From positions 1-44,453 of IMG/VR virus record IMGVR_UViG_3300008459_000096: DNA of 44,453 nt; one strand, written 5' to 3'. Shown here one piece after another: positions 4,390 through 41,328 of the stretch. The first letter of the stretch is position 1; each line of letters starts with the position of its first letter. The stretch is from a virus. Under the pieces are notes generated by a model. That model did no database searches. It was not told the DNA's origin and saw only the letters and a list, made by a program, of their open reading frames with translations. The translations under genes were made by a program, and so were the position numbers.

Positions 4390-4397
4390 TATAAATA
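4390..4397 (-). promoter_or_regulatory. TATTTATA late-type box
   Basis: An exact TATTTATA on the coding strand, 11 nt before the ATG at 4378. Here it is part of the perfect palindrome TATTTATAAATA. It belongs to the recurrent set described in the findings; the promoter role is inferred. Confidence 0.5.
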
Positions 4398-4403
4398 TGA
4401 AAA

Positions 4404-5576
4404 TTATTGTTTTCTGATATTAAAATATCCATTACCATAATAAGATAATTCTCCGGTATTTTCAATTTCAGATAATCTAAATGTTTTTTCAAGAACACCC
4501 TGTTTACCTCTTTCAACAAATATGTCCGAATATATTACAGGTTCATCAATAAACCCTAAGAAATGTTCATTTCTTGTTATAACACAATTAATTACTTCTT
4601 CTTTTGTAAATCCAGATGTTGCACCTGTAATTGTTGTTACACCATCTTCAAAATCTCTATAGTATAAATCATCAATAGTATATGCACTATAAACTAAATT
4701 ATTTGTGATTCCCGTAGTTACCCCTGTATATGTGTTAGCACCATAAAGTTTCTTTTCGTTAATTCTACTCCTACCAATAGAAGCGTAATAAAATACAGTA
4801 TTACCTGTGTATGTTCCATCACAATCACTGTCATAATCATTAAGATAATTTTGTGTTTGACCGGTAACATTAGAATATGGAATCGTAAAACCTGAAAAAG
4901 TACCCAAAGGATTTGGTATGGTTATGTTTGAAGGTATTTGAATTATTTTTTTTGTTTCAAATTGTGTCCATGGTGTATTTACCGAAATTGAAATCGTGGT
5001 TGTACCCGTGGAAGAATATGTTTTATTTGCGGTTATACCTGTTGCAGTTAAAATTGATGTTGTCCCATCTCCCCAATCAACCGTGAAATTTATATCATAT
5101 ATTTCAGATACTTTTGATGTGTCAATGGTGTTATAAACATAAACAGTATTACCTGTTTGTGTATATGAAAAATTACATATCTGTTCAACTTGTTCAATTT
5201 GCCCATCAAACCCAACCATCACACCCATTTCATCCACTGAACTTTCTAAAAAGACGGGAATATCGTGGTTATCGTATGCCTCTGATTTACTTATATTTTC
5301 CCATTCATATAATTTTAAACTTAAATCACAATCGGTGTCACCATATGACGTTCCATCTAAAGTTGTTCCCGACCAAATGTAATATCCTGAAGAAACAGTA
5401 CCACCAGTAACATTAAAAATAATATAACCATCTAAAGAGTCTATTATATTTGTGCTAGTTAATTCAAGTAAACCACCTAAACTATTGTACCAATATGGTT
5501 TATCAACCGCATACAACTTTAAGTTGGGAATTGATTTCCTACGTATTTCGTATTTTAAAGGTGGTTTAATATCCAT
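4404..5576 (-). CDS. PKD-like domain structural protein
   Basis: The 390-aa product carries a PKD/Ig-like segment at about residues 135-205. It has the hallmark VDWGDGTT (residues 166-173) followed by TYSSTGTTTISISV, the typical 'Y...G.Y.v.l.v' end of that fold. PKD domains are beta-sandwich modules for protein or glycan contacts and occur in phage fibres and baseplates. The rest is Gly/Thr/Tyr-rich with repeated 'TG' pairs, as in neighbouring tail proteins. The ATG at 5576 overlaps the preceding gene's stop (TAATG), which supports this start and coupled translation. A virion-surface or adhesion-related role is inferred from domain and position; the precise role is unknown. Confidence 0.82.
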   Translation of the reverse strand: MDIKPPLKYEIRRKSIPNLKLYAVDKPYWYNSLGGLLELTSTNIIDSLDGYIIFNVTGGTVSSGYYIWSGTTLDGTSYGDTDCDLSLKLYEWENISKSEAYDNHDIPVFLESSVDEMGVMVGFDGQIEQVEQICNFSYTQTGNTVYVYNTIDTSKVSEIYDINFTVDWGDGTTSILTATGITANKTYSSTGTTTISISVNTPWTQFETKKIIQIPSNITIPNPLGTFSGFTIPYSNVTGQTQNYLNDYDSDCDGTYTGNTVFYYASIGRSRINEKKLYGANTYTGVTTGITNNLVYSAYTIDDLYYRDFEDGVTTITGATSGFTKEEVINCVITRNEHFLGFIDEPVIYSDIFVERGKQGVLEKTFRLSEIENTGELSYYGNGYFNIRKQ

Positions 5577-6400
5577 TATTGTCTTCTTTCATAAAAATTT
5601 ATTGGAGCACTAAGTTGACCTTTTCGTGAACCCAATGAACCATTATATTGATAAACAATATATGAATAATCGGTTCTATCTATAATTACTTTATAATAAA
5701 CATCTTCTTCTTCAATAATTTCTTGACCAATAGACTTTGATTTATTAACAAAATCAATAATTGTTCCATCTTTTGCGTTATAAAATTTTGCGGTCATATA
5801 AAAAGTATTTCCTGTGATGTTTGTTCCACTAAAAGGTGAATCATCTAAAAACCAAAAGAAATACATATTTTCGGTATTTCTATAATTTGAACCCGTAAAA
5901 ACCGGAAGAAAAACAAAATCATTCAACGGTAACGTTGAACCAGATGGTGTTCCTGTAAAATAAACTTTTTCACCCAATGGTAATATTAAATTTTTTGAAA
6001 AGACCAATCGTCTATTTGTTTGATTTGGTGAATCATCGTTGGTTGTTTTGTAAAACTCTAAACGAAAAAAACTTTCAGTTGATTGTCTTAACATTTTTGC
6101 ATTTTCTCTCAATGTTATACCAACTGACTCATAATTCTGATTATATACACTTGAGGTGTTTAGAAAATAAAAATTGTACCAAATATCAACTTGTGTAAAT
6201 GTGGTTCCACTGGTAGATGTTACTGAATACGGTGAATGTATATATCTTGTTGTTTCATAGTTTTCAGCCGGATTTATTATGTCATATAAAATTTCTTGTT
6301 CCATTTGTTGTGCACTATCCGTCCACCCCAAATCTGACTTAAATGTTTGATTTGACGATAACAATATTTTTTGGTCGGTATCTTTTACTATAAATTTCAT
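5576..6400 (-). CDS. Hypothetical tail structural protein (274 aa)
   Basis: The frame is open from a GTG at 6406, but I place the start at the ATG at 6400. That ATG overlaps the upstream stop as TAATG, exactly as at four other junctions in the window, and gives a product starting MKFIVKDTDQKILLSSNQTF. I do not recognise the family. The product is beta-rich (for example the NLILPLGEKVYFTGTPSGST region) with no catalytic motif. It is coupled to its neighbours on both sides inside the tail cluster, so it is probably a virion or assembly protein. Confidence 0.8.
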   Translation of the reverse strand: MKFIVKDTDQKILLSSNQTFKSDLGWTDSAQQMEQEILYDIINPAENYETTRYIHSPYSVTSTSGTTFTQVDIWYNFYFLNTSSVYNQNYESVGITLRENAKMLRQSTESFFRLEFYKTTNDDSPNQTNRRLVFSKNLILPLGEKVYFTGTPSGSTLPLNDFVFLPVFTGSNYRNTENMYFFWFLDDSPFSGTNITGNTFYMTAKFYNAKDGTIIDFVNKSKSIGQEIIEEEDVYYKVIIDRTDYSYIVYQYNGSLGSRKGQLSAPINFYERRQ

Positions 6401-8160
6401 TAACACTTAAAACTTTCTATATTTTTAATTAAATCTTGTTTGTTTCTGTATATGTTCTCATTTCTTAAATAGAAATCAATATCACTTTTTACATAATGAA
6501 TACCATTAATAAATGAAAAATTTGTACCTAAACCGTCCGAGTCAATAAACCCATGGTCATATAAATCTCTCCATTTCCACAACCCATCGTTTTGAAAATA
6601 TTTTGCATTTTGTGGTAACCCGTATATTTGATTAGTTGTTGATGTTTCGATATATGGTGAAAGTTGTCTTAATTTAACCCTATGATGGGGTTGATAAAAC
6701 AAACCAAATTTGTTCGTTGCAGACGCACCAGAAAAGGTGACAGTTGACCCTGTTTGACCATAATCAAAAACAAAAAGAGGGTTCGAGAATCTATGGTATG
6801 CTTCACTAATAATTCTTTCCTTTAGTTCAGAAACATTATATTCAACAAAGGCACCATGTAATATAGTGTTAATAGGAACATCAGTACCACCGGTAAAATT
6901 GTATGTTACCGAATTTATTGTTTTAGTGAATGCGGTTGTTGGAATTGAAGTTTCAATAGTTGTTGAGCCGTCAAAATGTTGGTCAACCCATGTGTCATGG
7001 AAATTAAATTTCCATCCAACTTTTGGTGGATAATCAAAATATCCATTTCTATTTGATAATAATGTTGTTACATAAATTTCAGTAGGTAAATATTTTAAAT
7101 TATTTGTTAAACCTGTTAAAATGAATGGTTCTTTAAAATCGTAAATTAAAGACTCCATCATATTTCTTTCTACCAAATAATCACTAATACCTTCACTATT
7201 TTCTAATAATAATTTTTTTTCATTTTCCCAAATAGATGATTCAAATCCGGCTTTATCCAAAATATAATCACCTCTTTCTGTAAGTGTTTTATGTTTATGA
7301 ACATAATATGTGGAGGTTGTACCCGTTAAATTATCTCTATCAATACATCTTTTACCAAACACAACAGTCGATAATGTTGTACCTGAAGGTAATTCTGATT
7401 TTGAAATATCTAAAACAAATTTTTCAGACCTAAAAATAGAATCACCAACGGAAATAACAGAGAATGTTCTCCCACTTGCACTAACTGAATTGTTTAATGT
7501 TCCTCCACTAATTGTTATGTATTCACCCGCCAATATTCCATGCTCAACGGGACTTGTTAATTTATATGTTCTACCATTATCTTCAACTCTAAACGGTATC
7601 CCGTCTCCTGAAACAAAATTAAACACCGTGTTACCACTTAAAGTATATTTCATCGGGTAACTTGTGTCGTGGTCATAAACATACGATAAATGAATATTCC
7701 AATTGTGGTACGGAGCCATTATACTCGATATTGAAACGTGACTTGACTCACCACTATAAGATATTGATGGGGTATATGTAGTTATCGAAGAAAGTGTTTG
7801 TACTGAATTAGATTGTCTTAACACATCTTTTCTAAGAAAAGCAAATTCGTTGTATGGTATGAATCCATCAAAATTATTATCTCCACCATCACCAACCAAA
7901 TACAAATTCTTTAAAAGTGGCTCGTAGTCAGTGTCACCACTATACAAATTTCTGAAAACCATTTTTAGTTTTCCGTGTATTTTGTAAGAACTACTTTCGT
8001 TTCTTTCTTTATTAAATAATTCAACATTATTTAATATGACGTTTCTATCCCCTTCTCTTAAAAGGTTTTGTGTTTCATCCAATCCAATTCTAATATTTTG
8101 GTCAACATTTGTTGAACCAAAAAATTTTTTAGATGGTAATATTATTTTTTTCTTATCCAT
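6400..8160 (-). CDS. Hypothetical tail/baseplate structural protein (586 aa)
   Basis: A 586-aa protein beginning MDKKKIILPSKKFFGSTNVD. No family is recognised with confidence. The N-terminal 130 residues are charged and look partly helical (GLDETQNLLREGDRNVI). The rest is Ser/Thr/Gly/Tyr-rich and beta-like, as in phage fibre or baseplate decoration proteins. Start and stop are each fused to a neighbour by TAATG overlaps at 8160 and 6400, so its synthesis is probably coupled to the 1534-aa protein before it and the 274-aa protein after it. A role in the same sub-assembly is inferred. Confidence 0.82.
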   Translation of the reverse strand: MDKKKIILPSKKFFGSTNVDQNIRIGLDETQNLLREGDRNVILNNVELFNKERNESSSYKIHGKLKMVFRNLYSGDTDYEPLLKNLYLVGDGGDNNFDGFIPYNEFAFLRKDVLRQSNSVQTLSSITTYTPSISYSGESSHVSISSIMAPYHNWNIHLSYVYDHDTSYPMKYTLSGNTVFNFVSGDGIPFRVEDNGRTYKLTSPVEHGILAGEYITISGGTLNNSVSASGRTFSVISVGDSIFRSEKFVLDISKSELPSGTTLSTVVFGKRCIDRDNLTGTTSTYYVHKHKTLTERGDYILDKAGFESSIWENEKKLLLENSEGISDYLVERNMMESLIYDFKEPFILTGLTNNLKYLPTEIYVTTLLSNRNGYFDYPPKVGWKFNFHDTWVDQHFDGSTTIETSIPTTAFTKTINSVTYNFTGGTDVPINTILHGAFVEYNVSELKERIISEAYHRFSNPLFVFDYGQTGSTVTFSGASATNKFGLFYQPHHRVKLRQLSPYIETSTTNQIYGLPQNAKYFQNDGLWKWRDLYDHGFIDSDGLGTNFSFINGIHYVKSDIDFYLRNENIYRNKQDLIKNIESFKC

Positions 8161-11100
8161 TATTCAGATGTTGGAAACGCTCCTTTAGGTCCAAATAGTT
8201 GAACAAACTTATCTACCGCAGTTTTGCCTGGTCTAATTCCAAAATAAAATAAAAATGGTGTGGATAATATTTGTAAATTACCCGTATAATTTTTTAATGT
8301 TGGTTTTAATATGTAATCAATATTGGTGTTCCACGATTGAGAATCCCATACACCAATACTACCTTTTCTAACCCATAAAGTACCTGCTAATGGAGTTTGA
8401 GTTGTTCCCGAAGTAATATGTAACACAGTGAACCCTTCTTCTTGATTATCGTATTGTAAATGAACATCAGTTGTGTCCTCAACATCAAATGAACCATCGT
8501 TTACATCTGCACCCGTTATATTAAAGGTATTACCTGAATAATCTTTTGTCATTGGAAACAAAACATAATTATATGTTGTGTCGCCCGTAAACGTATAACT
8601 AAATGTCATTCCCTGTAGTCTATGTGTCCTTATGGTATCGTAATCCCACGATTGATTATAACCTTCCCCAAAACCTTGTCCTTGTTTGTCCCAATAAAAA
8701 AACGGAACAATCTGTGATGATTCAGTCAACCTACCAGGTTCATTTAAACAAACCCTCACTCTATAACCATCATCATCCAAAACAAAATTTATTGGTATAG
8801 GTCCATTTAATGTTCCGGCTTGTGACCTAAATAATTGGGAATATGTGTCGGGGTCTAAAATTAATGGACTATATTGTCCGTAATATCTATTTTGTAAATC
8901 AAATTCCTCAACACCAACTTCGCTATTTATTGATATTAATTGTAAAACGTCTCCATTTAATATTTCTTTTGTTGTATTAAATGGGAGATACGAACTAAAT
9001 CCATTATTTTGAAAAAAATCTCTATATTCAAATGTGTTATTGGTATCTAATCTATAGTTAATATAAAGCCCGAAAATTTCCTTAAAGTTTTGAAAAGATG
9101 TTGGCCCAATACTTCGAACAACCGAACAATTAGGGTCTAAAGATGGGTCGACACATATTTCTTTTATAAATTCATCTCTTGGTCCCAAATCCATAATTGT
9201 TGTTGGGTGTCTTAATGTACTGAATGTTGTTCCGTTACTTACTGTAGATTGAAAAGACGAACCATCCCACTTAGTTGACCTATAGTAAAATCTTTTAACA
9301 GGTTCACCAGTGGACTTTTCACTTACTTTATAATATAATAAATCGTCGCAATAATTTGTTCCTCTAACGTTCAAATCTAATGTTTCCTCATTATCCCATC
9401 TAACCCTTGCTTTAAAAGCAAACAGATAAAGAGAACCACCTAACCAATTTTCAATAAATGAATAATTTACAACACCTTCACAAAAAACTTTATTGATTAG
9501 TTTTCTTCTGGCATATTCTCTAATTAATTTAAAATTATATAACCAATTATTTGGAGATGCTGCTGGTATTATTGTATATGTCCCTTTTCTAAATTCAGAA
9601 AAACCACTTCTAGTACTACACGTCGAACAAGGATTACTATTCGTATTATATGATATTTGTCCAACAGGTAACAGACTTGTACACGATGTTCCGTTTTGAA
9701 CCGTGACTAAAGCCGTATTGTTATAATCATCATTAATATTTGAGGCACAATACGTTTGTTTAACAAGTGTTTCATCGTATATTGTATTCTGCGTATCGCA
9801 ACCTAAAGACAAATCACCGGTAGCACCAGATAAAGATTGTTGAGGTAGTTTAAGAGAAGAATCATATATTTCATAAGTGAATCCTGTCCATTGAAAATCA
9901 CTTAAAGAAGAATTACCAACACTATCACCACTTATTGAACTATAACAACAAGAATTGGTTACTGACGATGGTCCAGAACAACCTATAGAATAATTCATAC
10001 AACTTGATGTTGAAATATAAGATGTTAAATTACCATAAGACTCAATATCAGATATATCAACACGCAACACATACCACTTATTGTTTACCGGTGTTGGTAT
10101 ATCATAAACGCCATAGGAACATTCACCTATTGTTGCGTCACCAATAGATATTCTTACATTAGATAATGCAGTGTAACCGGAGGGTATTGAATAATAAAAG
10201 GCAACCATATAGGATAATCCTCTGGTTATTGTTCCCGCACTTTTTGTTACTGCATTTGTCCAATCAATTGAAAATGTCATAGTGCTAGGGTCGTCTAATA
10301 TTGTTTCGATATATCCGCTACATGTTTTTATACTAGAGTGATAATATAAAACGTAATTATATACTGTTGAGCAAATACCATCAGTAAACGTAATACTTGA
10401 TGAAGTATTTTGCGAAGAAGTTGGGTCGGTACAATCACACGTTCCGTTTGGGGTTTGTCCAGATGCACAAGCCGGTTGAGAAAAAGGTGTTACATATAAG
10501 TCACTAATGGACCATCGACCTTCAAAACAACTATTTGTTGGACACGGAGATGGATAATCATATTGTGGGGGTATTCCATTATTACCTAATCGATACACTA
10601 ACCAACCAAAATTATTATTATCATATCCCTTATAACCAACTTGAGTTGCTGGTGAACCACAAGAAAATTGGTCAATTGTTAGTTCGGAATATGTATTTAC
10701 CTCTAAAGTATTTAATCTATTAAGTTCATACGCATTTGCACTTCCATGTGGTAAATAACTTTTTAAAACAATAAAATACGTTTTACCGCTAATTGGTAAA
10801 TTACTTGCAGTATATATAGTATCCAATGATTCACCAGTCGAATTACCGTTACAAGTTATTCCCGTAAAATTATAAGTGGGTAACGTTGAACCACTTGAAG
10901 ACATAATGAACTCGTCAATTGTATTATCGGGGTCACATATTGGTGAATATGGAGAACCATTAATATTTAAAGTATCTCTAACCGCAACTCCTTCCCCGAC
11001 TTTACAATATAGTTCATCAGGTCTTTCAGTTGGAATAAGTATTTGTTCACTTGAAAAATCTTCACAAGTTTCACACTCAGGATAAACAACAATTGATAAA

Positions 11101-12764: not shown

Positions 12765-12769
12765 TTCTA

Positions 12770-12777
12770 TATAAATA
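12770..12777 (-). promoter_or_regulatory. TATTTATA late-type box
   Basis: An exact TATTTATA 5 nt before the ATG at 12764. It sits in a small dyad TTCTAT-TTAT-ATAGAA. If it is a -10 element, the transcript would be leaderless. Confidence 0.5.
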
Positions 12778-12813
12778 GAAAATAAACAATTTTCTAATTA
12801 AAATAAATCCAAT

Positions 12814-14646: not shown

Positions 14647-14647
14647 A

Positions 14648-15100: not shown

Positions 15101-15103
15101 GTT

Positions 15104-15111
15104 TATAAATA
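15104..15111 (-). promoter_or_regulatory. TATTTATA late-type box
   Basis: An exact TATTTATA ending only 3 nt before the well-supported gp25 ATG, the shortest spacing in the set. If it is a promoter -10 box, transcription would start at or inside the start codon. Confidence 0.5.
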
Positions 15112-15133
15112 TAGTAAAACAATAAATCTAAGT

Positions 15134-15502: not shown

Positions 15503-15506
15503 ATAT

Positions 15507-15514
15507 TATAAATA
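15507..15514 (-). promoter_or_regulatory. TATTTATA late-type box
   Basis: An exact TATTTATA ending 4 nt before the ATG at 15502 and directly downstream of the nrdA terminator T-run. It sits in the palindrome TATATT-TAT-AATATA. It would restart transcription for the second structural block. Confidence 0.5.
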
Positions 15515-15546
15515 TAAAAAAATCCCATCGAGTATTCGATGGGATT
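15515..15546 (-). terminator. Rho-independent terminator after nrdA
   Basis: Read on the minus strand, an 11-bp perfect stem AATCCCATCGA/TCGATGGGATT (15546-15536 with 15531-15521), with a 4-nt loop, runs straight into TTTTTTT. It closes the replication/nucleotide transcript and separates it from the structural genes that follow. Confidence 0.88.
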
Positions 15547-15550
15547 GTAT

Positions 15551-15637: not shown

Positions 15638-18600
15638 TTATGAACCACATCCTTCACATTCAAATGGCGAATCATTTGGTTTAATTGATAAAACCATTTC
15701 CTCAACATAATTACTTGTTAAGTTTGATTCTTTAACATTACTTATTTGATTTTCAACATTTGGTTTAGAAGTTGTTACATCAATACCCAACCCTTTAATT
15801 GGGTCAACAGCCGCCTTAGTTCTAAGATAGTACATTCCGGTTTTTAAACCAAGTTTCCACCCGTATAAATGAGCAGCCATAACTTTTGTTTTATTTGCGT
15901 TATCAATAAATAAATTTAATGACTGAGATTGGTCGATATAAATTGACCTATTTGCCGCCATTGTTAGAATTCTTTTTTGTGACATTTCCCAAACTGTCTT
16001 ATAAATTTCTTTTACATCAACAGGTATCTCGGGTATGTTTTGAACCGAACCGTTTTCCATTATTAATTTTTTCTTTATTTCATCAGACCACAAACCTCTT
16101 TCCAACAATTCATTAACCAAATGTTTGTTGATTACAATGAACTCCCCACCTAGTGTTCTTCTTGAATAAAGATTGGATGTGAATGGTTCGAATGCCTCGT
16201 TATTACCTAAAATTTGAGCGGTAGATGCTGTTGGCATAGGTGCAACTAATAAAGAGTTTCTTATACCATATTTGACAACATCTTTTCTTAGCGATTTCCA
16301 ATCCCATCTTCCACTTGTGTCCTTGTCTGTTTTACCCCATAACTCGTATTGAAATTGACCCTTAGATAAGGGAGAACCATCAAATGAAGAGTATGCCCCA
16401 TTTTCAATAGCCAAGTCTGTAGATGATGTGAGAGCCGCGAAATAAATTGTTTCAAATATTTCTACTTGTAATTTGTCTGCATCCTCACTTTCAAAAGGTA
16501 ATTTTAACATACAAAATACATCTGCCAATCCTTGAACACCTAAACCAACTGGTCTATGTTTCATGTTTGAAAGTTTTGTTTCCTCAGTAGGATAAAAATT
16601 TAAATCAATAACGTTGTTTAAGTTTTTTACAACTTGATACACATATTCATATAGTAAATCGTGATTAAATTCTTTGTTGACTATGTATTTTGGTAAAGCA
16701 ATTGATGCTAAATTACAAACCGCTTGTTCTTCTGAAGAAGAAAATTCTAGAATTTCAGTGCAATTAAATGTTTTTAATCCTTGTGAAATAAAAATATGTT
16801 CATCATTATAAATTGTTGGACAATAAACATCTTCTTTACCCACATATTCTATGGATTTTACTTTATATCCCTTTTTCGTATTATCCCGAAATTCACGATT
16901 ATCAATGATTATGTTTTTTCTATCAAGAAACCCTATTTTTTCATTTATTTTTTGTGAGTCATTTTTATTACCAACAATTAATCTATAACAATCTTTTGTT
17001 TTGTATAGTGAATATCCACCTTTACCATTTGGTAATGACCGTTGACCTCCATTTCTTAACAATCTAATAGATGTTTGAAGACCTAAATTTTGAAAAATTA
17101 ATTGAAGCTCTTTTAAAAAATCAATATTTATGTCGGCATAACTTATTTGTGTTGGCTCCCCTTTTGATTTATTTTTATTAGCTGTTCCATCAGCAAATAA
17201 TAAACCCCGCAAATAAGACCATTGCGTTTCTTCATTTGAAGACCAAATCCATTCGGGTACATATCCCTTTTCAAAGAGTAATTCTTTTTTAAAAAATTCA
17301 CTAGATAATCTTTTTTTCTTTACTTTAGAAAATGAAACAACACAATCTATAAATTTACCACCTTTAGTTGAATATCTAGGTTTATACTCGTATTTTGAAT
17401 ATAATTTTTGAATTTTGTTTTCAATCTCTTCAACTAAATCAAAATCATTTTCCCATAAATCAAATAAAATTGATGATTTGTTTTGTGTACCATCTGATTG
17501 ATATAAACCCAATAAAAAGGCCTCATCTACCATTTCTTTTGAACCAAACAATCCTTTATTAGTTTGTACTGCTATTTTATCACCTATTTTTAAATCCTTA
17601 CATTCAATACGTGTTATATTATTTCTTGAGTCAATTACAGGTATTCCATGATATGGTGTTACTTTATGTTCCATACCATTTTCTAATGTTATTTTATAAA
17701 CATCTTCATTTTCACCTCGTTTAATCATTTTGGATGATTTGACAATTTCAGAACCATTAAAAAGTTCTAATTCCACATCCATTTCACACAATTCTTTGGC
17801 TGTTAAGTAACCCTTTGTTGTCACCACTCTTTGGTCACCTGTTATACACAAATTAGATGATTTTATTGTACCTAAATTCTTTTGGTTTGATTTGTAATTA
17901 GCAGCATCCTTATATAACATATAAGGAACACCTGTTTCAATTTGAGCAGTTAAAATAGCGTCCATTAATTTTCTGGCCTTTACAACTTTTCTAGCCCTAC
18001 CCTCCTTTTCGTATCTTTCATATAACTCAGTAAAATCTTGTGTAAATTTGTATGGGTCATCATATACGTCAGATAATCCAGGTGCCTCATCTGGTGAAAA
18101 TAATGACCATTCTAAATCTTGTTCTACTCTTTTCATAAATAAGTCAGGGACCCACATTGCTAAAAATAAATCTCTAGCCCTTAATTCTTCTTTTCCATGA
18201 TTTTTTCTTAATTCAATAAACTCAAATACATCTGAGTGCCATGGTTCAAGATAAACAGCGAATGAACCGCGGCGGCGACCCCCTTGGTTAATCCAACGAG
18301 CAACTTCATTGTATGTTTTCATCATTGGTAACAAACCATCTGATTCTCCACCAGTACCTTTGATATATGCACCTTTACCTCTTACATCATGAACATGTAA
18401 ACCAATACCACCGGCCCATTTAGATATCTTCGCGACATCTTTTATTGTGTCAAATAAACCATCAATATCATCACCTTTATTACCAATCAAGAAACAGGAC
18501 GACATTTGTGGTCTGTGTGTTCCTGCGTTAAATAAAGTAGGTGTTGCGTGTGTATAATAATGTTGTGATAAATCATCATAAATTCTTAAAGCGGTCTCTA

Positions 18601-19147
18601 TGTCATTATTACAAATACCAACAGCAACTCTCATGTACATGTATTGTGGTCTTTCAACAATACGATTACCAATCTTTAATAGATATGAACGTTCTAATGT
18701 TTTAAACCCAAAATAATCAAAATCAAAATCTCTTTCTTGAATAATCGCACCATCTAAAACATCCTTATATTGTTGAACAAAATTATAGGTTTCATTTGAA
18801 ATTAATGAAGATTCCTTATTTGTTTTCGGTTCAACAAATAAATGCAATTCCTTGATTGAATGTGAGAATTTTTTTGGTGTGGTTTTATGTAAATTAGATA
18901 CCGCCAATCTACCAGCTAATTTTGCGTAATCTGAGTGAGAGGTGACAAGAGATGCCGCAGTTTCCGCTGCTAAAACATCTAACTCTGTTGTTGATATACC
19001 GTCATAAATACCTTGTGTCACTTTAAGGGTTATCAATGTCGGGTCAACATATTCAAGATTTAAATCATCGCAAAAATTTTGAATTCTTCTTGTAATTTTG
19101 TCATATCTCATTTCTTCCAATGAGCCATCTCTTTTTTTAACTTTCAT
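15638..19147 (-). CDS. nrdA: Ribonucleoside-diphosphate reductase class Ia large subunit, intein-containing precursor
   Basis: A 1169-aa precursor; removing the 362-aa intein leaves an 807-aa NrdA that reduces NDPs to dNDPs for phage DNA synthesis. Residues 1-90 form an ATP-cone. Active-site parts, by alignment with E. coli from memory: C218 (SSCFL, = C225), N432-L433 then C796-T797-E798 (NLC-E, = N437, C439, E441, thiyl radical site), C811 (AVCNL, = C462), Y1106-Y1107 (radical transfer pair) and the C-terminal shuttle pair C1164/C1167 (CEGC). The intein splits the radical motif, so the enzyme should be inactive until splicing. It lies 11 nt after nrdB; a terminator follows. Confidence 0.97.
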   Translation of the reverse strand: MKVKKRDGSLEEMRYDKITRRIQNFCDDLNLEYVDPTLITLKVTQGIYDGISTTELDVLAAETAASLVTSHSDYAKLAGRLAVSNLHKTTPKKFSHSIKELHLFVEPKTNKESSLISNETYNFVQQYKDVLDGAIIQERDFDFDYFGFKTLERSYLLKIGNRIVERPQYMYMRVAVGICNNDIETALRIYDDLSQHYYTHATPTLFNAGTHRPQMSSCFLIGNKGDDIDGLFDTIKDVAKISKWAGGIGLHVHDVRGKGAYIKGTGGESDGLLPMMKTYNEVARWINQGGRRRGSFAVYLEPWHSDVFEFIELRKNHGKEELRARDLFLAMWVPDLFMKRVEQDLEWSLFSPDEAPGLSDVYDDPYKFTQDFTELYERYEKEGRARKVVKARKLMDAILTAQIETGVPYMLYKDAANYKSNQKNLGTIKSSNLCITGDQRVVTTKGYLTAKELCEMDVELELFNGSEIVKSSKMIKRGENEDVYKITLENGMEHKVTPYHGIPVIDSRNNITRIECKDLKIGDKIAVQTNKGLFGSKEMVDEAFLLGLYQSDGTQNKSSILFDLWENDFDLVEEIENKIQKLYSKYEYKPRYSTKGGKFIDCVVSFSKVKKKRLSSEFFKKELLFEKGYVPEWIWSSNEETQWSYLRGLLFADGTANKNKSKGEPTQISYADINIDFLKELQLIFQNLGLQTSIRLLRNGGQRSLPNGKGGYSLYKTKDCYRLIVGNKNDSQKINEKIGFLDRKNIIIDNREFRDNTKKGYKVKSIEYVGKEDVYCPTIYNDEHIFISQGLKTFNCTEILEFSSSEEQAVCNLASIALPKYIVNKEFNHDLLYEYVYQVVKNLNNVIDLNFYPTEETKLSNMKHRPVGLGVQGLADVFCMLKLPFESEDADKLQVEIFETIYFAALTSSTDLAIENGAYSSFDGSPLSKGQFQYELWGKTDKDTSGRWDWKSLRKDVVKYGIRNSLLVAPMPTASTAQILGNNEAFEPFTSNLYSRRTLGGEFIVINKHLVNELLERGLWSDEIKKKLIMENGSVQNIPEIPVDVKEIYKTVWEMSQKRILTMAANRSIYIDQSQSLNLFIDNANKTKVMAAHLYGWKLGLKTGMYYLRTKAAVDPIKGLGIDVTTSKPNVENQISNVKESNLTSNYVEEMVLSIKPNDSPFECEGCGS
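16763..17848 (-). mobile_element. LAGLIDADG homing-endonuclease intein in NrdA
   Basis: Precursor residues 434-795 (362 aa). Block A starts at C434 (CITGDQRVVTTKGYLTAKEL). Block B holds VTPYH (TxxH, residues 496-500). Two LAGLIDADG-type motifs are visible: FLLGLYQSDG (544-553) and YLRGLLFADG (645-654). The C-terminal region reads DEHIFISQGLKTFN, with N795 followed by extein C796. The usual penultimate histidine is replaced by Phe794. The host cysteine after the junction is the catalytic radical cysteine, a highly conserved and so hard-to-mutate target. Inteins excise from the protein; the nuclease spreads the DNA to intein-less alleles. In-frame with both exteins and apparently intact. Confidence 0.95.
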
Positions 19148-19158
19148 ATCTTTAAATT

Positions 19159-20136: not shown

Positions 20137-20152
20137 AATTATAATTTTTTTT

Positions 20153-21529: not shown

Positions 21530-21542
21530 GTTTTTTTATTTT

Positions 21543-25246: not shown

Positions 25247-25250
25247 TAAC

Positions 25251-26241: not shown

Positions 26242-26242
26242 A

Positions 26243-26443: not shown

Positions 26444-26456
26444 ATTTCTTTTTTTA

Positions 26457-26464
26457 TATAAATA
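26457..26464 (-). promoter_or_regulatory. TATTTATA late-type box
   Basis: An exact TATTTATA 13 nt before the ATG at 26443, followed by the A-rich leader TAAAAAAAGAAAT. It would serve the 66-aa, 210-aa and Dps-like genes and the tRNAs. Confidence 0.5.
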
Positions 26465-26487
26465 TTCAAAAAAAAGAAAATATCCAA

Positions 26488-32593: not shown

Positions 32594-35500
32594 TATTTTT
32601 TTCTATAAAAATTTAATTTATTTGTCACTTCATTTGATTCTGAAAATATTTTAGTTGATTCATTTATAATTGTTCCATTTGTTTCATCCGATATGGTTAT
32701 AACATCAAAGTTTATTTCTTTACCATTTTTTCTGTCTTTAAATTTTGTAAATTTAAAATCCTTTTTATTCGGTACATTAATAAAATTTTGTAATCTTGTT
32801 TTTAACTTGTTCTTTACTGTTTCAGGATAAAGAGATGTATCAGTAAAAAGATTCATGAATGATTCTATTTTATCAAATAATAATTGACTGATAATAAAAT
32901 CAAAATCAGAAGATTGTATTGTTGGATTTAAAAAAGTAATGTTTGTCGATAAATCAACAGTTAATTTTGAATGATTTTCTTCAATATACGTTATACATGA
33001 CTCATATTCCTTATATAATAAATCTGAAGTAAATCCCGAAAACTGAAGGCTTTTTACTGTATCATTGTCGATAGTAGAATCTTTTGCATTTTTTATAACA
33101 AAGTTTAATTTATCTAATGTTTTTATTAAATCGTTTCTCGATTCTTCTAATTCTTTTAATATTTCACCATCAGAAATCTTATCTACTTTTTCCTGAATTA
33201 CCTTTTTAATAAATGGTTTTATTATTTTTTCATTTGTATCTATTAACAAAGAGCCCGTGATTACTTTATCAAAAGTAAACAAATTTGATAAATATGTTGT
33301 TGATGAATTATCAATAAAATTATTTAACGCCAGTTCCAAACCTTCAGAATAAACAGATAATTCTTTTCTTTTTTCATGTAAACCAAATAATTCCAATACT
33401 TTACCAGGTGTTGGCGACGTTGAAGTATAAACATCATATTGGTATATTGGTCTATAATCATTTTTTAATAACATTGTTGTTATGTCTTTCCCGTATTTTG
33501 TATATATTTGATTGTATATTGAAACATATTTTTCAAAATAATTTTTTGTTAAATCAAAAAGGTTTGTTACTAATTCTGTGTAACTCATTTCTTCAACGTT
33601 CGTTGTATTTCCAACAGGCACACCCATGTAATTATTTTGGGTAATATTTTTATTGTTTTTTATTAAATCTGCACTTGGTGTAATATTGTAGTATGATTGG
33701 TTTAGTTTATCTAAAAAGTCTTTTGTAAATTCTTCAGGTGTCATTCCACCAATTGTTTCATTTGTTGAAATTGACCTTTCATCGTACATTTCGGTATTCG
33801 CAAAGAAATTAGACGACAACGCGTTTTGAAGTCTTTCAACGGGTTTAGATAACCCATGACCACCAATGAATGAAACTTGTAACGTAACACTTGCAACCAT
33901 CGGTTGAATACCAATACCTTCGGGATTTAAATCCCAAAGTATTTGGCCACCATCATCGTAATTAATTTGAACATCTCTTATTACTACTTTTGAGTGATAA
34001 AAATCACCGATTCTAATTACACAAATTGGTGGTGGACCAAAAGATGTGTTTCTTGCGTTTAAATCTGAATCTTCAGATATACCTTTTATCGGTATTGTGT
34101 CACCAGGTCTAACACACTGTAATAAAAATGTTAACCTACTATTTAAACCTTCAGGTGTCATCGAGTGAAAAGCAGGGTGGAAATATTTTAATTTGTCTTT
34201 AAGGGACTTAAAAGATATGGGGTCGGTTTCTTCTAATTTTTTAAAATAAAAACATTCTGAAAGAGTTTTTGCAATGACTCTTTTTATTGGGTCAATTGGT
34301 GGTTTTTTGGATGGTTGTGAAATTGGTATTTTACCATTTGGTTCTACTGTCGTAACTGGATTAGTTGGATTATTTTTTGGTTGAGACGCCGGTTGTTCGG
34401 TTCTTGAACGATTTTCATATTTCAATTCGAATGTCGTTTGTCTACAATAAAATGATATTGGTGAATATGTACCAAGTTCCCTAACTTTTATAAAATCTTT
34501 ACCTATACAGTTTGTTTCGGGTTGTCCACCAGTAAAATTTTCACCGTAATTAACTGATTCAACAATAATTTTACCATCATAATCATATCCAAAGTCTTTG
34601 ATTTTATATTCTTTTATTATCTCAATTGGTTTTCCTCTTTCGATAATTAATTTATCATTATCCCCAAGATTTTTATTTGTTGGTGTTAAATCGCTTATCC
34701 ATATCATATTTGGTTTTTTTCCTCCATTCGATATAGTATCAAATATATCTTGTAAAACACTATGACTTCTCCTAATCGCCAATCTTTCGTTATAGTCAGA
34801 GGAAGCCGAAGAAGATGCTGAAGATGAAATTTTAATACGAATGTCTTCTGCTGTTTTACCAGATAGTTTTGATTTTAATTCATTAAGAGAAGATTGGTAA
34901 TCGGAATATCCCGAAGTCGCTTTATCGAAATAGTCTCCGATTTTTGTTTTTTGCTCATCGATTAAAGATTGAGTAATTGTTACATTTTCATTACCAAAAA
35001 TATAACTTTTTTCTTTTTTAACTTGAACATCGTTTTGTGAAAATCCTGTTAATTGTTTGATAAGAGTATCTAACTGATTAATATATGTTGTTTTTCTTGT
35101 TGGTATATAAGAATTATATAATTCTGAATAATTTCGTGATGTTTCTAATGATTTACTATTTGGGTCAGGTCTATCATTATCAAATTTTAAATTGAAAGTT
35201 TTTTGAGTTGGTGGACCAGATTCATCTTTAACAGTAGGTGTTACCGGTGTTTCTACAACCGGCGGTTCTGTTGTTACTTTATATTGTTGAATAAATTCGG
35301 GGTCTTTTCCTTTGTCTAAAAAATTTTGTAATAGTTTTATATCGTTAGAATCTAATTGTGTGTATCTTCTAACTAAATCATAAAAATCTAATTCTTCACA
35401 ACCAGCAAAAAACGCATTAATGTAGTTTTCAGCTTCATCATCGCTCATTCCTTTAAAGTGTTCTCTGACCAACAAATTTAAAATACTTGGGTGGTCAACA

Positions 35501-37440: not shown

Positions 37441-37446
37441 CTATTA

Positions 37447-37454
37447 TATAAATA
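37447..37454 (-). promoter_or_regulatory. TATTTATA late-type box
   Basis: An exact TATTTATA 6 nt before the ATG at 37440, inside the dyad TCTATT-TATAT-AATAGA. The spacing implies a leaderless or nearly leaderless message if it is a promoter. Confidence 0.5.
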
Positions 37455-37471
37455 GATATTTTTTGATTTTT

Positions 37472-39400
37472 TTAACTAAATGTTCCAATATATTCTCTAT
37501 AATCTGATGTCATTGCCATTTGATTCATAATTTCGTTTCTTATTGCATCCGCATTGACATTACTATTAATTGAAATTTCTAATTTTTTATTTTCACTAAC
37601 AACATTACCGCCTCTGTTTTTGGTTTCATCTATTGCGTAAATCGTGTCGTTTATACTTGGAATAATAATATCTTTTTGATTTGGTCTAATAATGGCATCT
37701 TCCACTTTTTTTGTAACAAAATCATATCCCGTACCCTTAATCTCTCCCTTTTTACCCGTTAAAAGTTGACCTATCTCATTTTGACCACTTTTTGTTTGAT
37801 TTAAATATTCATTAGTATTTTTTAAATATTCATCCACTTTTGAAAGACCTCCTCGAACACCACTAGCAAAATCAACTTTCATCATTGTAACTATTTCTGA
37901 AACATTAAGACCTATTTTTTGCATTTCAGTATATTGTTCTAACGCAATATCTTTGGCACTCATTTTTTCGAATACTTCTTGATTATTCAATAAAACTTGT
38001 ACTTGTTCGCTATTTAATTCATCCAAAGCAACTCTTGTTTGGTTACTAAATTCTCCAAATAATTCCTTTGGAACGTCGATAACCATTTTACCACCCTCCA
38101 TTCTCGCTAAGTTCGTAATAAACTCTTGTTGTTTTTCGTCAAGATTAAATCCTCCTGCCAATAAATCTGCAGACGCTGATGTTCTTTCAGCCGCTTTTAT
38201 CGCGGTGGTTGATAATTCGTCCATACTCATGCCTAATTCACCAGCTAATGCCCTTGCTTTTCTTAAATTAACACCAGTGATTTCAAATTTACCCAATTCT
38301 GAATTATATGTTGCTAAAGAACCTGCAACACCAATCATTGCTTCTTGTAATCCACCAGCATCGTTTGTTGCCATATACATCAACTTTAAAGGGTCGTTAA
38401 AGTCTCCGATAGCCCCACCTATTGCCTGTAAATTCGCGGATAATCCAATTGCTTGGTCAGGGTCAAATAGTTTTTCGGCTAAAGTAAACACACTTTGCAT
38501 ACTCATTTTAAATTCAATAGATTTTTGAACCATTCTTGTTAATCCATCAAATCCATTTTTAAAACCGTATTGGTTTAAATTTTTCATGTTTGTTTCGATT
38601 TCTGAAACAACTTTTCTTGCATTTAAACCTAAACTAATTGAGCTTGTACCAGCTTGATTTATTTTGTCTAAGGCATCTGCCGCACCAAAACCCGTTTTTT
38701 CGTATGTTCCAATCATCTTCCCAAGAGTATCTAAATCACCAACAAATGCTCTTGATGTTACAGCCATGTCTCCAATTACTTCTCTATTATATAAAGTAAA
38801 TTTACCCTGTTCTTCTATCATTGCCGTAATCGTATCCTTAACATCCTCAAATCCATAACCCATAGATATCATTTGAGGTAAAGTTTCCACAATTTCGGTT
38901 CTTAACCCTCTAGACAGTTTTCCTGAAATACCAATTTTTGAATTTATCTGATTGTGTAAATTCACTTCTTGTTCTAGTATTTCCGCACCCTTTGATGTCA
39001 CCTCAGTTAACATGGATTTAAAAAAATTTGAACCCACATTTTTTAAATTCTCACCAAAATTACCTTTTCCAAAAAGACCACCGTCACCAAATGTTCCACT
39101 TATTAATGATTGTACACCGTCAATAATATTAGACGCTTGAATCATTTCTGAACTTTGTACTTTATACGATTGGACACTTTGGTTTAAATTTTGTATTTTT
39201 TTTAAAGGTTCAATATCAACAGAACCCGATGATGATTGAGACGGTGTGTTTACTCTATTTTGTGATGACATATATTCATTCCAAGCTTGTAGAAATGCGG
39301 TTGACTCGCCCGGGTCAATTGCCCCACACGCACTTATATATATTTGAAGATTACCTCCGCTTTGATTGGCTAATCTTCTAAAATCCCCAAGATTCCTCAT
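37472..39400 (-). CDS. Tail tape measure protein
   Basis: A 642-aa, largely helical protein with Gly/Ala-rich amphipathic stretches (GLSANLQAIGGAIGDFND, KARALAGELGMSMDELSTTA) typical of tape measure proteins. These set tail length and are ejected with the DNA. At about 1.5 A per residue it would span roughly 95 nm, close to T4, whose gp29 is 590 aa (inference from length only). The gene lies after the tube gene and the chaperone-like gene with its overlapping frame, the standard place for a tape measure. A TATTTATA box lies 13 nt before the ATG. Confidence 0.82.
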   Translation of the reverse strand: MRNLGDFRRLANQSGGNLQIYISACGAIDPGESTAFLQAWNEYMSSQNRVNTPSQSSSGSVDIEPLKKIQNLNQSVQSYKVQSSEMIQASNIIDGVQSLISGTFGDGGLFGKGNFGENLKNVGSNFFKSMLTEVTSKGAEILEQEVNLHNQINSKIGISGKLSRGLRTEIVETLPQMISMGYGFEDVKDTITAMIEEQGKFTLYNREVIGDMAVTSRAFVGDLDTLGKMIGTYEKTGFGAADALDKINQAGTSSISLGLNARKVVSEIETNMKNLNQYGFKNGFDGLTRMVQKSIEFKMSMQSVFTLAEKLFDPDQAIGLSANLQAIGGAIGDFNDPLKLMYMATNDAGGLQEAMIGVAGSLATYNSELGKFEITGVNLRKARALAGELGMSMDELSTTAIKAAERTSASADLLAGGFNLDEKQQEFITNLARMEGGKMVIDVPKELFGEFSNQTRVALDELNSEQVQVLLNNQEVFEKMSAKDIALEQYTEMQKIGLNVSEIVTMMKVDFASGVRGGLSKVDEYLKNTNEYLNQTKSGQNEIGQLLTGKKGEIKGTGYDFVTKKVEDAIIRPNQKDIIIPSINDTIYAIDETKNRGGNVVSENKKLEISINSNVNADAIRNEIMNQMAMTSDYREYIGTFS

Positions 39401-39413
39401 AAAATTGTTTACA

Positions 39414-39421
39414 TATAAATA
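39414..39421 (-). promoter_or_regulatory. TATTTATA late-type box
   Basis: An exact TATTTATA 13 nt before the tape measure ATG at 39400, immediately after the stop of the +1-frame extension (39428). Confidence 0.5.
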
Positions 39422-39427
39422 TCAATT

Positions 39428-39574
39428 TTATTTATTTTCCAATTCTTGGATATAGTTAACATAATATCGTCTAATCGATATTGGCATTGAAAGAATATCC
39501 CCGTAGGAGAATCCTCTTCTTATTAGATATAAGATTTCGTCTAATTGAGACTTTCTATAGTCCGTAGAAAGGGC
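39428..39574 (-). CDS. +1-frame extension ORF of the chaperone-like gene (frameshift product)
   Basis: This short frame encodes ALSTDYRKSQLDEILYLIRR then GFSYGDILSMPISIRRYYVN then YIQELENK and stop. The 'GFSYGDILSMP...RRYY' style resembles small tail-assembly proteins. The frame is open only from 39628 (after TAA TGA) and has no ATG or GTG upstream of its conserved part, so independent initiation is unlikely. A +1 slip from the 249-aa gene at TTT_CGC would join it as a 291-aa protein. The reading was checked codon by codon. Frameshifted chaperone pairs just before the tape measure are known in many tailed phages. Confidence 0.68.
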   Translation of the reverse strand, partial: ALSTDYRKSQLDEILYLIRRGFSYGDILSMPISIRRYYVNYIQELENK

Positions 39575-40304
39575 GAAAAAATTCGACCCCAAATCCAATA
39601 ACAATTTGGATATTCTCTCCTGATGGGGTCATTACTTCTTTTTTTAGGTCAATTGCGGGTCTATTCTCTCTAACATATTTTCTAAAGTCTTGAGAATCTT
39701 TAATTGGTAGATTTTCAATGAAATTTCTAATGTTCATTGGGTCTTTATTACCAGCCACCGATTTAATCATAAATTCAAGTTGTTTTGTGACAATTGGTGG
39801 TACACCAACTCCATTCCAACTTTTTTCAATTTGTTCGATTTCTTTTTCTTGTTTTTTTGTTAAAAATTTAAAAGTGATATCAATTTTTGAAACGTTGGTG
39901 GTATATTTAAATTCACCGTTTTCATTTGGTTCGAGATTAAAATCTTTAAACGACAACTCACTTAAATCAAAAGTAACATCGAATTCTTTACCTGTTTTTC
40001 CGTCAGTTATTTTATAACTGTATTCAGAACCAAAAGCGGTGTTTCTTAAAAATATTAAAACCGCCATTCTATCCTCATCCACTAAATCATCTAATTCAAT
40101 ATCTTTATCGATTATTTTTCTTTTTAACAACTCATCAATAACAGTATTGTTTTGGATTAAGTTTGATGAAGATAATATATTTTCATCTGCAGCGGTTAAA
40201 TATGCAACTCTTACTGATTTTTTTTTATTTTTATAAAAAATACCTCTTGAAGGTAATTCAACAACATCATAAGCAATGTTGGGGTCAATTTTAAATTCTT
40301 CCAT
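39555..40304 (-). CDS. Tail/baseplate assembly chaperone-like protein (T4 gp26 type)
   Basis: The 249-aa product starts with VELPSRGIFYKNKKKSVRVA followed by YLTAADENILSSSNLIQNNT. 'LPS.G.FY...V....LTA.EE..L' is the pattern I associate with T4-type baseplate hub/assembly proteins (Pfam T4_baseplate; named from memory). The region KDIELDDLVDEDRMAVLIFL is also typical. It has no catalytic motif. Position just upstream of the tape measure, plus the overlapping +1 frame, points to a G-like tail assembly chaperone. Its start is 1 nt from the previous stop. The zero-frame product ends FFRPFYGL; shifted product described separately. Confidence 0.75.
   Translation of the reverse strand: MEEFKIDPNIAYDVVELPSRGIFYKNKKKSVRVAYLTAADENILSSSNLIQNNTVIDELLKRKIIDKDIELDDLVDEDRMAVLIFLRNTAFGSEYSYKITDGKTGKEFDVTFDLSELSFKDFNLEPNENGEFKYTTNVSKIDITFKFLTKKQEKEIEQIEKSWNGVGVPPIVTKQLEFMIKSVAGNKDPMNIRNFIENLPIKDSQDFRKYVRENRPAIDLKKEVMTPSGENIQIVIGFGVEFFRPFYGL
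39573..39581 (-). other. Candidate +1 programmed frameshift site TTT_TTT_CGC
   Basis: The zero-frame codons 242-244 are TTT TTT CGC. The second Phe-tRNA could slip from TTT to TTC, a cognate and usually better match for anticodon GAA, and the next codon becomes GCC. The A-site CGC should be rare in this A+T-rich genome and could cause the pause. A -2 slip would give the same frame. Confidence 0.5.
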
Positions 40305-40305
40305 T

Positions 40306-40695
40306 TTATTTATTTTCTTCGTTTGATTTAAATGTTAATAGTGTCGATTCTTTATCCATAATGAATTTAAATTTATTTGTTTGTAATTCACTATTTGAAT
40401 AAGATTGTTCTTTTTCAAAATTTGAACCTTTTATTTTAAATTCTAATGAACTTATTATTTCACCAATAGGTGAAAGATAATCTATTTTAACACCAGTAAT
40501 ATCAAAAAAATCTTTTGGGTTAAAAATATAGTTTACTGTCTCATAAAATTCGGTGGTAAAAATTAAATCATCACCTTCGTTATAAATTTTATATTTCCTA
40601 AAAAGAAATTGAGGAACATATACACCAATTACGTTGATTATATATCTATTTTCAATTAGTGGTTCGATTGGTTCAAATTTAAATATGTCATTCAT
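40306..40695 (-). CDS. Hypothetical tail protein (129 aa)
   Basis: The 129-aa product begins MNDIFKFEPIEPLIENRYII. Family not recognised. The segment NRYIINVIGVYVPQFLFRKY loosely recalls the start of tube-type proteins ('RF.V.F....P.....'), and the rest is beta-rich, so a small tube-fold paralogue is possible but weakly supported. It lies 1 nt before the chaperone-like gene and after the tube gene's terminator, with a variant box (TATTTTATA at 40729-40721) 25 nt before its ATG. Confidence 0.75.
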   Translation of the reverse strand: MNDIFKFEPIEPLIENRYIINVIGVYVPQFLFRKYKIYNEGDDLIFTTEFYETVNYIFNPKDFFDITGVKIDYLSPIGEIISSLEFKIKGSNFEKEQSYSNSELQTNKFKFIMDKESTLLTFKSNEENK

Positions 40696-40720
40696 AAATT
40701 TATCTTTTAACTATAACTAT

Positions 40721-40729
40721 TATAAAATA
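40721..40729 (-). promoter_or_regulatory. Variant late-type box TATTTTATA
   Basis: It differs from TATTTATA by one extra T. It lies 25 nt before the ATG at 40695 and just downstream of the tube gene terminator, where a new start would be needed. Confidence 0.3.
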
Positions 40730-40737
40730 CAAAACTA

Positions 40738-40775
40738 TATAAAAAAGTAAAGGTCTTCCTTTTGAGAAGACCCTT
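40738..40775 (-). terminator. Rho-independent terminator after tail tube gene
   Basis: The minus strand forms AAGGGTCTTC/GAAGACCTTT (40775-40766 with 40758-40749), 10 bp with one G-U pair and a 7-nt loop, followed by ACTTTTTTATATAG. It isolates the abundant tube message. Confidence 0.8.
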
Positions 40776-40802
40776 TCTATTGATAAAATTATTTTTTTTA
40801 AA

Positions 40803-41291
40803 TTAGTACACCAAAATACATCTATCTGGTCGTAAAGAGCAAGTAATTGTTGCAATTTCATCTCTTGAATAATCCAATTCATTGAAGTTTAAATCGGTGA
40901 TGAATGTACCTTGCATAATCCATTTCTCAACAACTACACCCGTCGGGTCTAACATTTCTAGTTCAATATCTTTCTTATAACCAGCAGCATAACCCATTCT
41001 ACCTGTAACAGATTCTGCATGCAATCTAAACCATTCCATTAAAGCCTGTGCTGCCGATGGACCAATTGGGTCTCTAAAAGTTACTCTCATTTCAGCCCAT
41101 TCAAATCTACCAGCAACATACGTTGAAGTATTTAAAAATGGTATTGCTACCGAGTTTATTTTTGCCGAAGGTCTAGCTGCGGATGATACATACCATTCAT
41201 TAATTCCCAATGAAGATGGGAACCTCAAAATGAATCTATTTTGACGTTTCGGTTCGTATGGAACCGGCATTTTCATTAATAAATCTGCCAT
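40803..41291 (-). CDS. 19: Tail tube protein, gp19-like
   Basis: The 162-aa product matches T4 gp19 (163 aa), the subunit of the inner tail tube. Signature stretches are KRQNRFILRFPSSLGINEWY (15-34), SAARPSAKINSVAIPFLNTS and WAEMRVTFRDPIGPSAAQAL, followed by the C-terminal NELDYSRDEIATITCSLRPD (a 'D.s...i.t.t..lr.D' end typical of the tube fold). It has its own TATTTATA box 29 nt before the ATG and a terminator after the stop, fitting a high-copy virion protein. Confidence 0.95.
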   Translation of the reverse strand: MADLLMKMPVPYEPKRQNRFILRFPSSLGINEWYVSSAARPSAKINSVAIPFLNTSTYVAGRFEWAEMRVTFRDPIGPSAAQALMEWFRLHAESVTGRMGYAAGYKKDIELEMLDPTGVVVEKWIMQGTFITDLNFNELDYSRDEIATITCSLRPDRCILVY

Positions 41292-41320
41292 TTTTTTTCT
41301 TTATTTTTATTATTCTTTAT

Positions 41321-41328
41321 TATAAATA
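41321..41328 (-). promoter_or_regulatory. TATTTATA late-type box
   Basis: An exact TATTTATA 29 nt before the tail tube ATG at 41291, the longest spacing in the set. The leader after it is purine-rich (AAAGAATAATAAAAATAAAG). Confidence 0.55.

Follow-up and report, generated by a model that had tools for sequence, protein, structure and literature searches.

The late promoters of phage T4, associated with gp55, gp33 and gp45 (PMC2988020, PMC7892883), consist of a single 8-bp box without a -35 element, followed by AT-rich DNA, and the cited passage of PMC2988020 describes this box as tightly adhered to. In the same passage, the late boxes of KVP40, 44RR and S-PM2 are highly similar to that of T4, and that of Aeh1 is changed at -13/-12. 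For flavobacterial sigma-A, the cited parts of PMC6847099 and PMC9723704 describe the -7 element TAnnTTTG, a single dominant box near the start site, and mostly leadered host transcripts. Here we describe a recurrent box of 8 nucleotides (nt), TATTTATA, in one 44.5 kb phage record, IMGVR_UViG_3300008459_000096 of IMG/VR, the whole of which (44,453 nt) is called the window. Twenty-seven genes of the window were taken as real, all on the minus strand. By PHROG matches they include tail sheath, tail tube, baseplate hub and baseplate wedge genes as well as a replication block with ribonucleotide reductase subunits, a DnaB-type helicase, an exonuclease, a UvsX-like protein and a single-strand binding protein. 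The box is a real lineage-wide late signal and is best read as a variant of the T4 late promoter. We consider it likely that TATTTAT[A/T] is the late promoter of a T4-related myovirus lineage, read by a gp55-like sigma factor, and that part of the resulting mRNAs are leaderless. In the open-licence literature, as covered by titles and abstract openings, no report of this box was found.

Comparison with known promoters

As in T4, the box is a TATA-like, 8-bp, -10-type element that lacks a -35 element, stands before a virion gene module and is followed by AT-rich DNA, and a gp55-like sigma factor is encoded. Unlike in T4, the centre of the box is TT and not AA, many gaps to the start codon are of 3-6 nt as against 14-28 nt at the 11 T4 sites measured, the gp55-like protein has 232 amino acids (aa) against 185 and carries an extra C-terminal helical part, and no gp45 was recognised, by a weak test. 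With the late boxes of KVP40, 44RR, S-PM2 and Aeh1 it shares the property of being a variant of one box that serves late genes, but the change lies at -10/-9, which the cited passage of PMC2988020 does not name; in our hands S-PM2 yielded AATAAATA. The top upstream 8-mer of Rhodothermus phage RM378, TATTTAAA (10 of 12 copies before genes in positions 1-50000), has the same TATTTA core, and 5 of the 12 genes listed there have a gap of 6 nt counted from TATTTAA. The last positions of TATTTAAA differ, however, and RM378 has no match to phrog_234, the profile used below in the search for gp55-like proteins; TATTTAAA is perhaps a thermophile version of the same core. The flavobacterial -7 element is likewise a single dominant box near the start site, but it differs in sequence and its transcripts mostly carry leaders.

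Position and strand of the box in the window

An earlier note, made from the sequence of the window alone, had reported eight TATTTATA boxes on the coding strand, with gaps of 11, 5, 3, 4, 13, 6, 13 and 29 nt to start codons, and we found all coordinates and gaps as it gave them. All 8 minus-strand (coding) copies of the window sit 3-29 nt ahead of starts, and the sole plus-strand copy (4386-4393) is an overlap within TATTTATAAATA. The boxes precede structural or unknown genes and never replication genes; the absence before gp32, uvsX, rnh (exonuclease), the helicase gene and nrdB, also reported in the note, was borne out. The note had further proposed counting the 8-mer against a shuffled background. 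The raw count of 9 was not above that of dinucleotide shuffles (mean 10.6; 69 of 100 shuffles reach 9), and in relatives the word read backwards was about equally common, but by strand and distance the box was clearly enriched before starts. At gaps of 0-29 nt before the 27 starts, 0.10 copies were expected and 8 were seen (Poisson P 1.8e-13); at gaps of 0-22 nt, 0.07 were expected and 7 seen (P 2.3e-12). What is unusual in the window is the strand and position of TATTTATA, not its copy number.

A test blind to the motif, in which every 8-mer was ranked by its excess in the 50 nt before open reading frames (ORFs; ATG-only and of at least 70 aa in our scripts), placed TATTTATA first in the window, in the related records G004, G006 and G008 and in the isolate immuto. 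It ranked second in G001, G005, G007 and Mel-JY01 (50 kb part), there behind the overlapping ATATTTAT. Applied to 49 kb of the T4 late region, the same test ranked TATAAATA first, a word that has rank index 653 in the window. When seven records were pooled, 90 of 670 upstream regions held TATTTATA (182 copies in all), a 25-fold excess over expectation, and TATTTATT was in 12-fold excess before starts; TAGTTATA was 8.6-fold over expectation before starts in relatives (11 of 65 copies). The pooled counts exclude the window, which overlaps G004, and Mel-JY01; both were included in the count of 164 gaps given below. Gene-level P values overstate independence, the seven records of the pool being related to one another.

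Conservation among relatives

A search with the tail sheath gene found at least 598 relatives among 600 viral contig stretches, and 80 were kept. For counts upstream of orthologues (tail tube, sheath and others), orthologues were dropped if the alignment stopped short of the N-terminus, if no ATG lay within 6 codons or if less than 30 nt were available upstream. The box at 41321..41328 (minus strand), 29 nt before the tail tube gene 41291, had an exact counterpart in 62 of 65 usable relatives at gaps of 29-48 nt, and in 34 of 35 after identical upstreams were removed. Before the tail sheath gene 44373 the window carries the variant TATTTATT (44413..44420, minus strand, gap 39); exact TATTTATA was found before this gene in 49 of 74 relatives (gaps 30-39; 37-40 in the sheath family), and all 25 rows printed have either TATTTATA or TATTTATT. 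The 62/65 and 49/74 counts include identical sequences, whereas the sets of distinct upstreams, of ATG contexts, of 137 sites and of 70 leadered sites used below collapse identical contexts. Genes 32593 and 32280, which overlap their upstream neighbour, had the box in 0 of 19 and 0 of 18 relatives.

The note had also named variants before genes 44373 and 40695. The former is real, as described above; the latter is better read as TAGTTATA (40712..40719, minus strand, gap 16 to gene 40695), for which the evidence is weaker than for the other boxes. An exact box was present before gene 40304 in 3 of 55 relatives and before gene 40695 in 0 of 5. In several relatives TAGTTAT[A/T], and not TATTTATA, precedes the baseplate hub family or the gene before the hub, and is possibly a weaker late box.

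The isolate immuto, which infects Flavobacterium, has the box before its terminase, portal, sheath, tube and hub genes, and G004 is 97.2% identical to the window over 33.3 kb. To judge from the relative immuto, the host of the window would be a bacteroidete; Mel-JY01, recorded from Microcystis, is a warning in this respect.

The box marks the starts of transcription units

Among genes at least 25 nt from their same-strand upstream neighbour the box was present at 88 of 272, as compared to 6 of 254 among genes at most 10 nt from it (P 8e-22). The boxes thus mark the starts of transcription units. In immuto, 19 of 55 genes in late regions, which we set from the immuto annotation, have the box, against 13 of 137 genes elsewhere (P 7e-5). 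Terminator-like hairpins were found in 14 of 77 gaps with a box and in 11 of 157 gaps without (P 0.013). In the window, an intrinsic-terminator-like hairpin at 15521..15546 (minus strand) is followed by a T-run and then directly by the box at 15507..15514.

Alignment of 137 sites gave no sign of a -35 element: between 2 and 50 nt upstream of the box no position exceeds 0.15 bits, and the base adjoining the box (0.45 bits) was the only other conserved position in those 50 nt. Downstream, at the 70 leadered sites (gap of 13 nt or more), the share of A was 79, 76 and 69% at positions +4 to +6, counted from the box, and 44% at +7. The +4 peak in the profile of all 137 sites was not used, because genes with a gap of 3 nt put the A of their AUG at this position and the peak is therefore partly circular. 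From these features we infer that TATTTAT[A/T] is a promoter. It would form the -10-like core of a late promoter without a -35 element, equivalent to the T4 box with its central AA replaced by TT, and the base profile of the leadered sites suggests initiation at an A about 4-6 nt past the box.

The host-type motif TAHHTTTG was tried before genes without a box and showed no sense bias (sense versus antisense, 5 vs 12 of 159 genes in immuto, 6 vs 5 of 93 in G007 and 10 vs 7 of 128 in G001). In immuto (MW353175), TATATTTAG occurs in sense before 14 of the 159 box-less genes and once in antisense; it resembles the host TAHHTTTG and is a candidate early promoter of this phage.

Box-to-start spacing and leaderless mRNAs

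Over 164 box-start pairs from 9 records (the window and G004 overlapping), the gaps ranged from 1 to 60 nt, with 20 pairs at a gap of 3, 18 at 4, one at 1 and none at 0 or 2. In a check free of gene calls, over the distinct contexts of 160 loci, TATTTATA is followed by ATG at offset 3 in 45 and at offset 4 in 42 of 392 cases, and TATAAATA in 0 and 4 of 391. In the gene after gp55 the first ATG lies 3-5 nt past the box in 44 of 45 distinct sequences, at offset 3 in 25, 4 in 18 and 5 in one. The spacing class is kept in 22 of the 27 families with two or more boxes, 10 having only gaps of 8 nt or less and 12 only gaps of 9 nt or more, and the median gap falls at 3 to under 7 nt in 23 of the 76 families that bear a box. 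In genes with gaps of 3 to 5 nt, the A of the AUG falls where A peaks after the box in leadered sites.

With many boxes only 3-6 nt before the AUG, the mRNAs of those genes are probably leaderless, beginning at the AUG or a few nt from it. Such would be the case for the gp25-like wedge gene, the gene after gp55 and the terminase gene of the window clade, whereas boxes 20-48 nt from the start, as at the tail tube and sheath genes, would give A-rich leaders. The idea of leaderless late mRNAs, put forward in the earlier note on account of the very short gaps, is favoured for boxes 3-6 nt from the start only; the tail tube and sheath genes, at about 20-48 nt, have leaders. The cited sources give a scale for this: the T4 late box lies at -13 to -6 (a derived position), ending 5 nt before +1 (PMC2988020, PMC7892883), and the -7 box of F. 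johnsoniae ends 4-5 nt before the start site (PMC6847099). The host spacing of 4-5 nt fits genes with gaps of 4 and 5; those with a gap of 3 need one nt less.

The window itself, where all boxes are on the minus strand, offers both classes. The box at 15104..15111 stands 3 nt before gene 15100 (gp25-like baseplate wedge), predicted to be leaderless, and its orthologues have the box in 5 of 5 distinct upstreams at gaps of 3, 3, 3, 3 and 4 nt. Leaderless mRNAs are also predicted for gene 15502, 4 nt past the box at 15507..15514 (2 of 2 distinct orthologue upstreams, gap 4), and for gene 12764 (1534 aa), 5 nt past the box at 12770..12777 (5 of 5, gaps 5-7). The box at 37447..37454, with a gap of 6 to gene 37440 (1615 aa), would give a leader of 1-2 nt; it recurs in 20 of 21 distinct upstreams, at gaps from 6 (n=5) to 17, so that the short gap is not universal. 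Longer gaps follow the boxes at 4390..4397 (11 nt to gene 4378; kept at 10-11 nt in 3 of 4 distinct orthologue upstreams) and 26457..26464 (13 nt to gene 26443; 5 of 5, gaps 9-14). The weakest case is the box at 39414..39421, 13 nt before gene 39400 (642 aa), present in 1 of 3 distinct upstreams of orthologues taken by N-terminal match; four members of the wider family show a 3-nt gap.

It could be that the box is a late promoter but the short-gap genes are not leaderless, initiation taking place elsewhere or the nearest AUG not being the one used. T4 or flavobacterial spacing would place +1 at the U or G of the AUG in gap-3 genes (cited passages of PMC2988020, PMC7892883 and PMC6847099), and in the likely hosts leaderless mRNAs are rare, being a minority of 5.5% in F. 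psychrophilum according to the cited part of PMC9723704, while in B. thetaiotaomicron 3.7% of 5' untranslated regions are under 10 nt. However, the printed N-termini of the short-gap families are alike from the box-proximal AUG onward, and 3 nt, the lower edge of the gap distribution, is also its mode. Moreover, an A at -3, which favours initiation in F. johnsoniae according to the cited part of PMC6847099, is present in 325 of 534 genes without a box but less often, in 11 of 36, where the gap is 3-4 nt (gene-level P 7e-4). We therefore regard leadered short-gap mRNAs as unlikely and prefer the leaderless reading for these genes.

A gp55-like sigma factor as the putative reader

The earlier note had suggested looking for a gp55-like sigma gene elsewhere in the genome. 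The window itself gave no match; the near-identical contig G004 encodes a gp55-like protein. Relatives of this protein numbered 114 in viral contigs (80 kept) and were also present in immuto (gene 153, annotated 'hypothetical protein'), Mel-JY01 and LR756508. The phrog_234 profile matched with E values of 1e-6 to 7e-5 in 6 of 14 relatives and of 0.008 in immuto, and it also matched in 3 more large records; 7 of 14 control genomes matched at E 1 or better and none at 0.01. The model of the gp55-like protein was of moderate quality, with a predicted local distance difference test (pLDDT) score of 66.7. When 519 chains were re-aligned to it, T4 gp55 (7d7c_F) came first (Z 10.5 over 115 residues, root-mean-square deviation 9.4), a Z that is tied with those of other sigma factors and of a size that chance alone can produce with helical models.

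In T4, the bases at -12, -9 and -8 enter the gp55 pockets of Y97, N13/H95 and T99, respectively, according to the cited part of PMC7892883, and the AA-to-TT change of the box falls on -10 and -9. A remote alignment shows Y97 conserved. S-PM2 and HTVC008M also retain N13 and T99, for which immuto, the window clade, Mel-JY01 and LR756508 have T/G/T/D and Q/G/S/S, respectively. These pocket changes are suggestive only. H95, which varies in both groups, was dropped as a specificity marker, as S-PM2 and HTVC008M also lack H there. Folded alone, the extra C-terminal part, which might take the place of the co-activator gp33, gave a pLDDT of 80.9, with a best Foldseek match at E 1.9; its likeness to SigA region 4 (6onu_F, Z 5.1) or to sigma-54 was level with that of unrelated proteins among 481 re-aligned chains, and no claim is made for either. 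No match to PF02916 (gp45 clamp) was found in 8 records or in G015-G017, by a model that finds the T4 protein but misses the annotated gp45 of S-PM2; T4 gp45 as query gave no match either, in a search without a positive control.

A gp55-like late sigma acting on the host RNA polymerase is probably the reader of the box, a pairing that we infer. Another candidate is an RpoD-like second sigma factor of 270 aa, with Sigma70_r2 and Sigma70_r4 over Pfam cut-offs, encoded in G001 (64593-65402, minus strand) and G007 (126495-127304, plus strand), the two proteins being 65% identical. It has in its favour that G001 has boxes while no gp55-like gene was found there. Against it, immuto shares the boxes and encodes a gp55-like protein, yet Sigma70_r2 finds nothing in it at E 1 or better, and the box promoters lack a -35 element. 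That the RpoD-like protein is the reader is, in our view, quite improbable, and the gp55-like protein is the preferred candidate.

A bolder proposal is that the lineage re-lettered its late promoter and sigma factor jointly, that the sigma works clamp-free by means of its own extra C-terminal domain, and that the distance from box to AUG is a largely inherited dosage code. This proposal as a whole we hold to be doubtful, and that spacing sets how much of each virion protein is made is speculation.

Weighing the late-promoter reading

Several observations weigh against reading the box as a gp55-dependent, partly leaderless late promoter. Regarding its distribution, in immuto, G007 and G008 the gene for the major capsid protein lacks its own box, 13 boxes of immuto fall outside the late regions, and LR756508 encodes a gp55-like protein although TATTTATA is absent before starts in its 43 kb examined. 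Regarding the reader, the relation to gp55 is remote: the G004 protein matched phrog_234 at E 0.0007 and phrog_351 (sigma factor) at E 0.0006, and Foldseek with its model gave no match at E 0.001 or better, T4 gp55 coming 35th at E 3.7. The records of 8 of the 14 relatives, which are fragments and include G001, have no phrog_234 match; tblastn found no gp55-like gene in G001 (155 kb, 22 boxes) or G005, and phrog_234 found none in Mel-JY01, though tblastn did. Regarding spacing, the 9 pairs of Mel-JY01 have gaps of 12-42 nt, none under 12, and 5 of the 27 families mix short and long gaps (terminase 3 and 3 but 17 in immuto; portal 3 and 16; the gene-37440 family 6, 6, 14, 14 and 17). Genes with a gap of 3 need initiation 3 nt past the box, and the enzyme must therefore start 1-2 nt closer than in T4 or F. 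johnsoniae. A pyrimidine precedes the AUG in 19 of 19 gap-3 genes, but with one member per family the effect was not significant (11/15 vs 27/52, P 0.24), and we therefore give it no weight.

Against these points stand the enrichment, the conservation and the position at transcription-unit starts, by which the proposal of the earlier note that the box may be a divergent T4-type late signal is favoured, short of proof. The same note had raised a role in translation or RNA processing, with the box as an element of the leader and not a promoter. The very short gaps would speak for it, as would host ribosomes that do without Shine-Dalgarno sequences and respond to upstream bases (cited part of PMC6847099). 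However, gaps span 1-60 nt overall and yet keep one class in most families, the box is nearly absent from operon-internal genes (6/254, as above), and some boxes follow terminator-like hairpins; we regard such a role as very unlikely. As a separate observation, ribosomal protein bS21 is phage-encoded in 6 of 13 records (G007, G008, G015, G016, G017 and Mel-JY01), and may have a bearing on translation initiation by these phages where the host lacks Shine-Dalgarno sequences.

It is extremely improbable that the active element is TATAAATA read on the opposite strand, which would direct transcription away from the gene. TATAAATA is the exact reverse complement of TATTTATA, and in coding sense it is mildly enriched in G006 (5 of 21, P 2e-5), partly via overlaps such as TATTTATAAATA; but the spacing from the box to the start downstream of it is conserved, and elsewhere among the relatives TATAAATA in coding sense stands far lower in the ranking than TATTTATA. 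The reverse-complement relation to the T4 box described in the note arises by coincidence from the palindromic flanks TAT..ATA; the box is coding-oriented with an AA-to-TT centre. Chance in AT-rich DNA, to which the unraised raw count and the equally common backwards word would point, has a negligible probability, refuted as it already is by positional tests in 9 records and by the box before 62 of 65 tail tube genes.

Apart from the boxes, the NrdA-like gene of the window (15638-19147) matches its families in two blocks (about 1-440 and 706-1113); the approximately 260 residues between them form a large insertion, perhaps an intein.

Significance

The T4 late promoter is a textbook signal, and a lineage with at least hundreds of records appears to use a centre-swapped box together with a diverged gp55. 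This divergence of box and sigma offers a natural pair for asking how a minimal sigma factor reads its box. From the recurrent spacing of 3-4 nt one would expect late phage mRNAs without leaders in hosts that lack Shine-Dalgarno sequences, and the box provides a ready late-gene finder for the abundant uncultured phages of this lineage.

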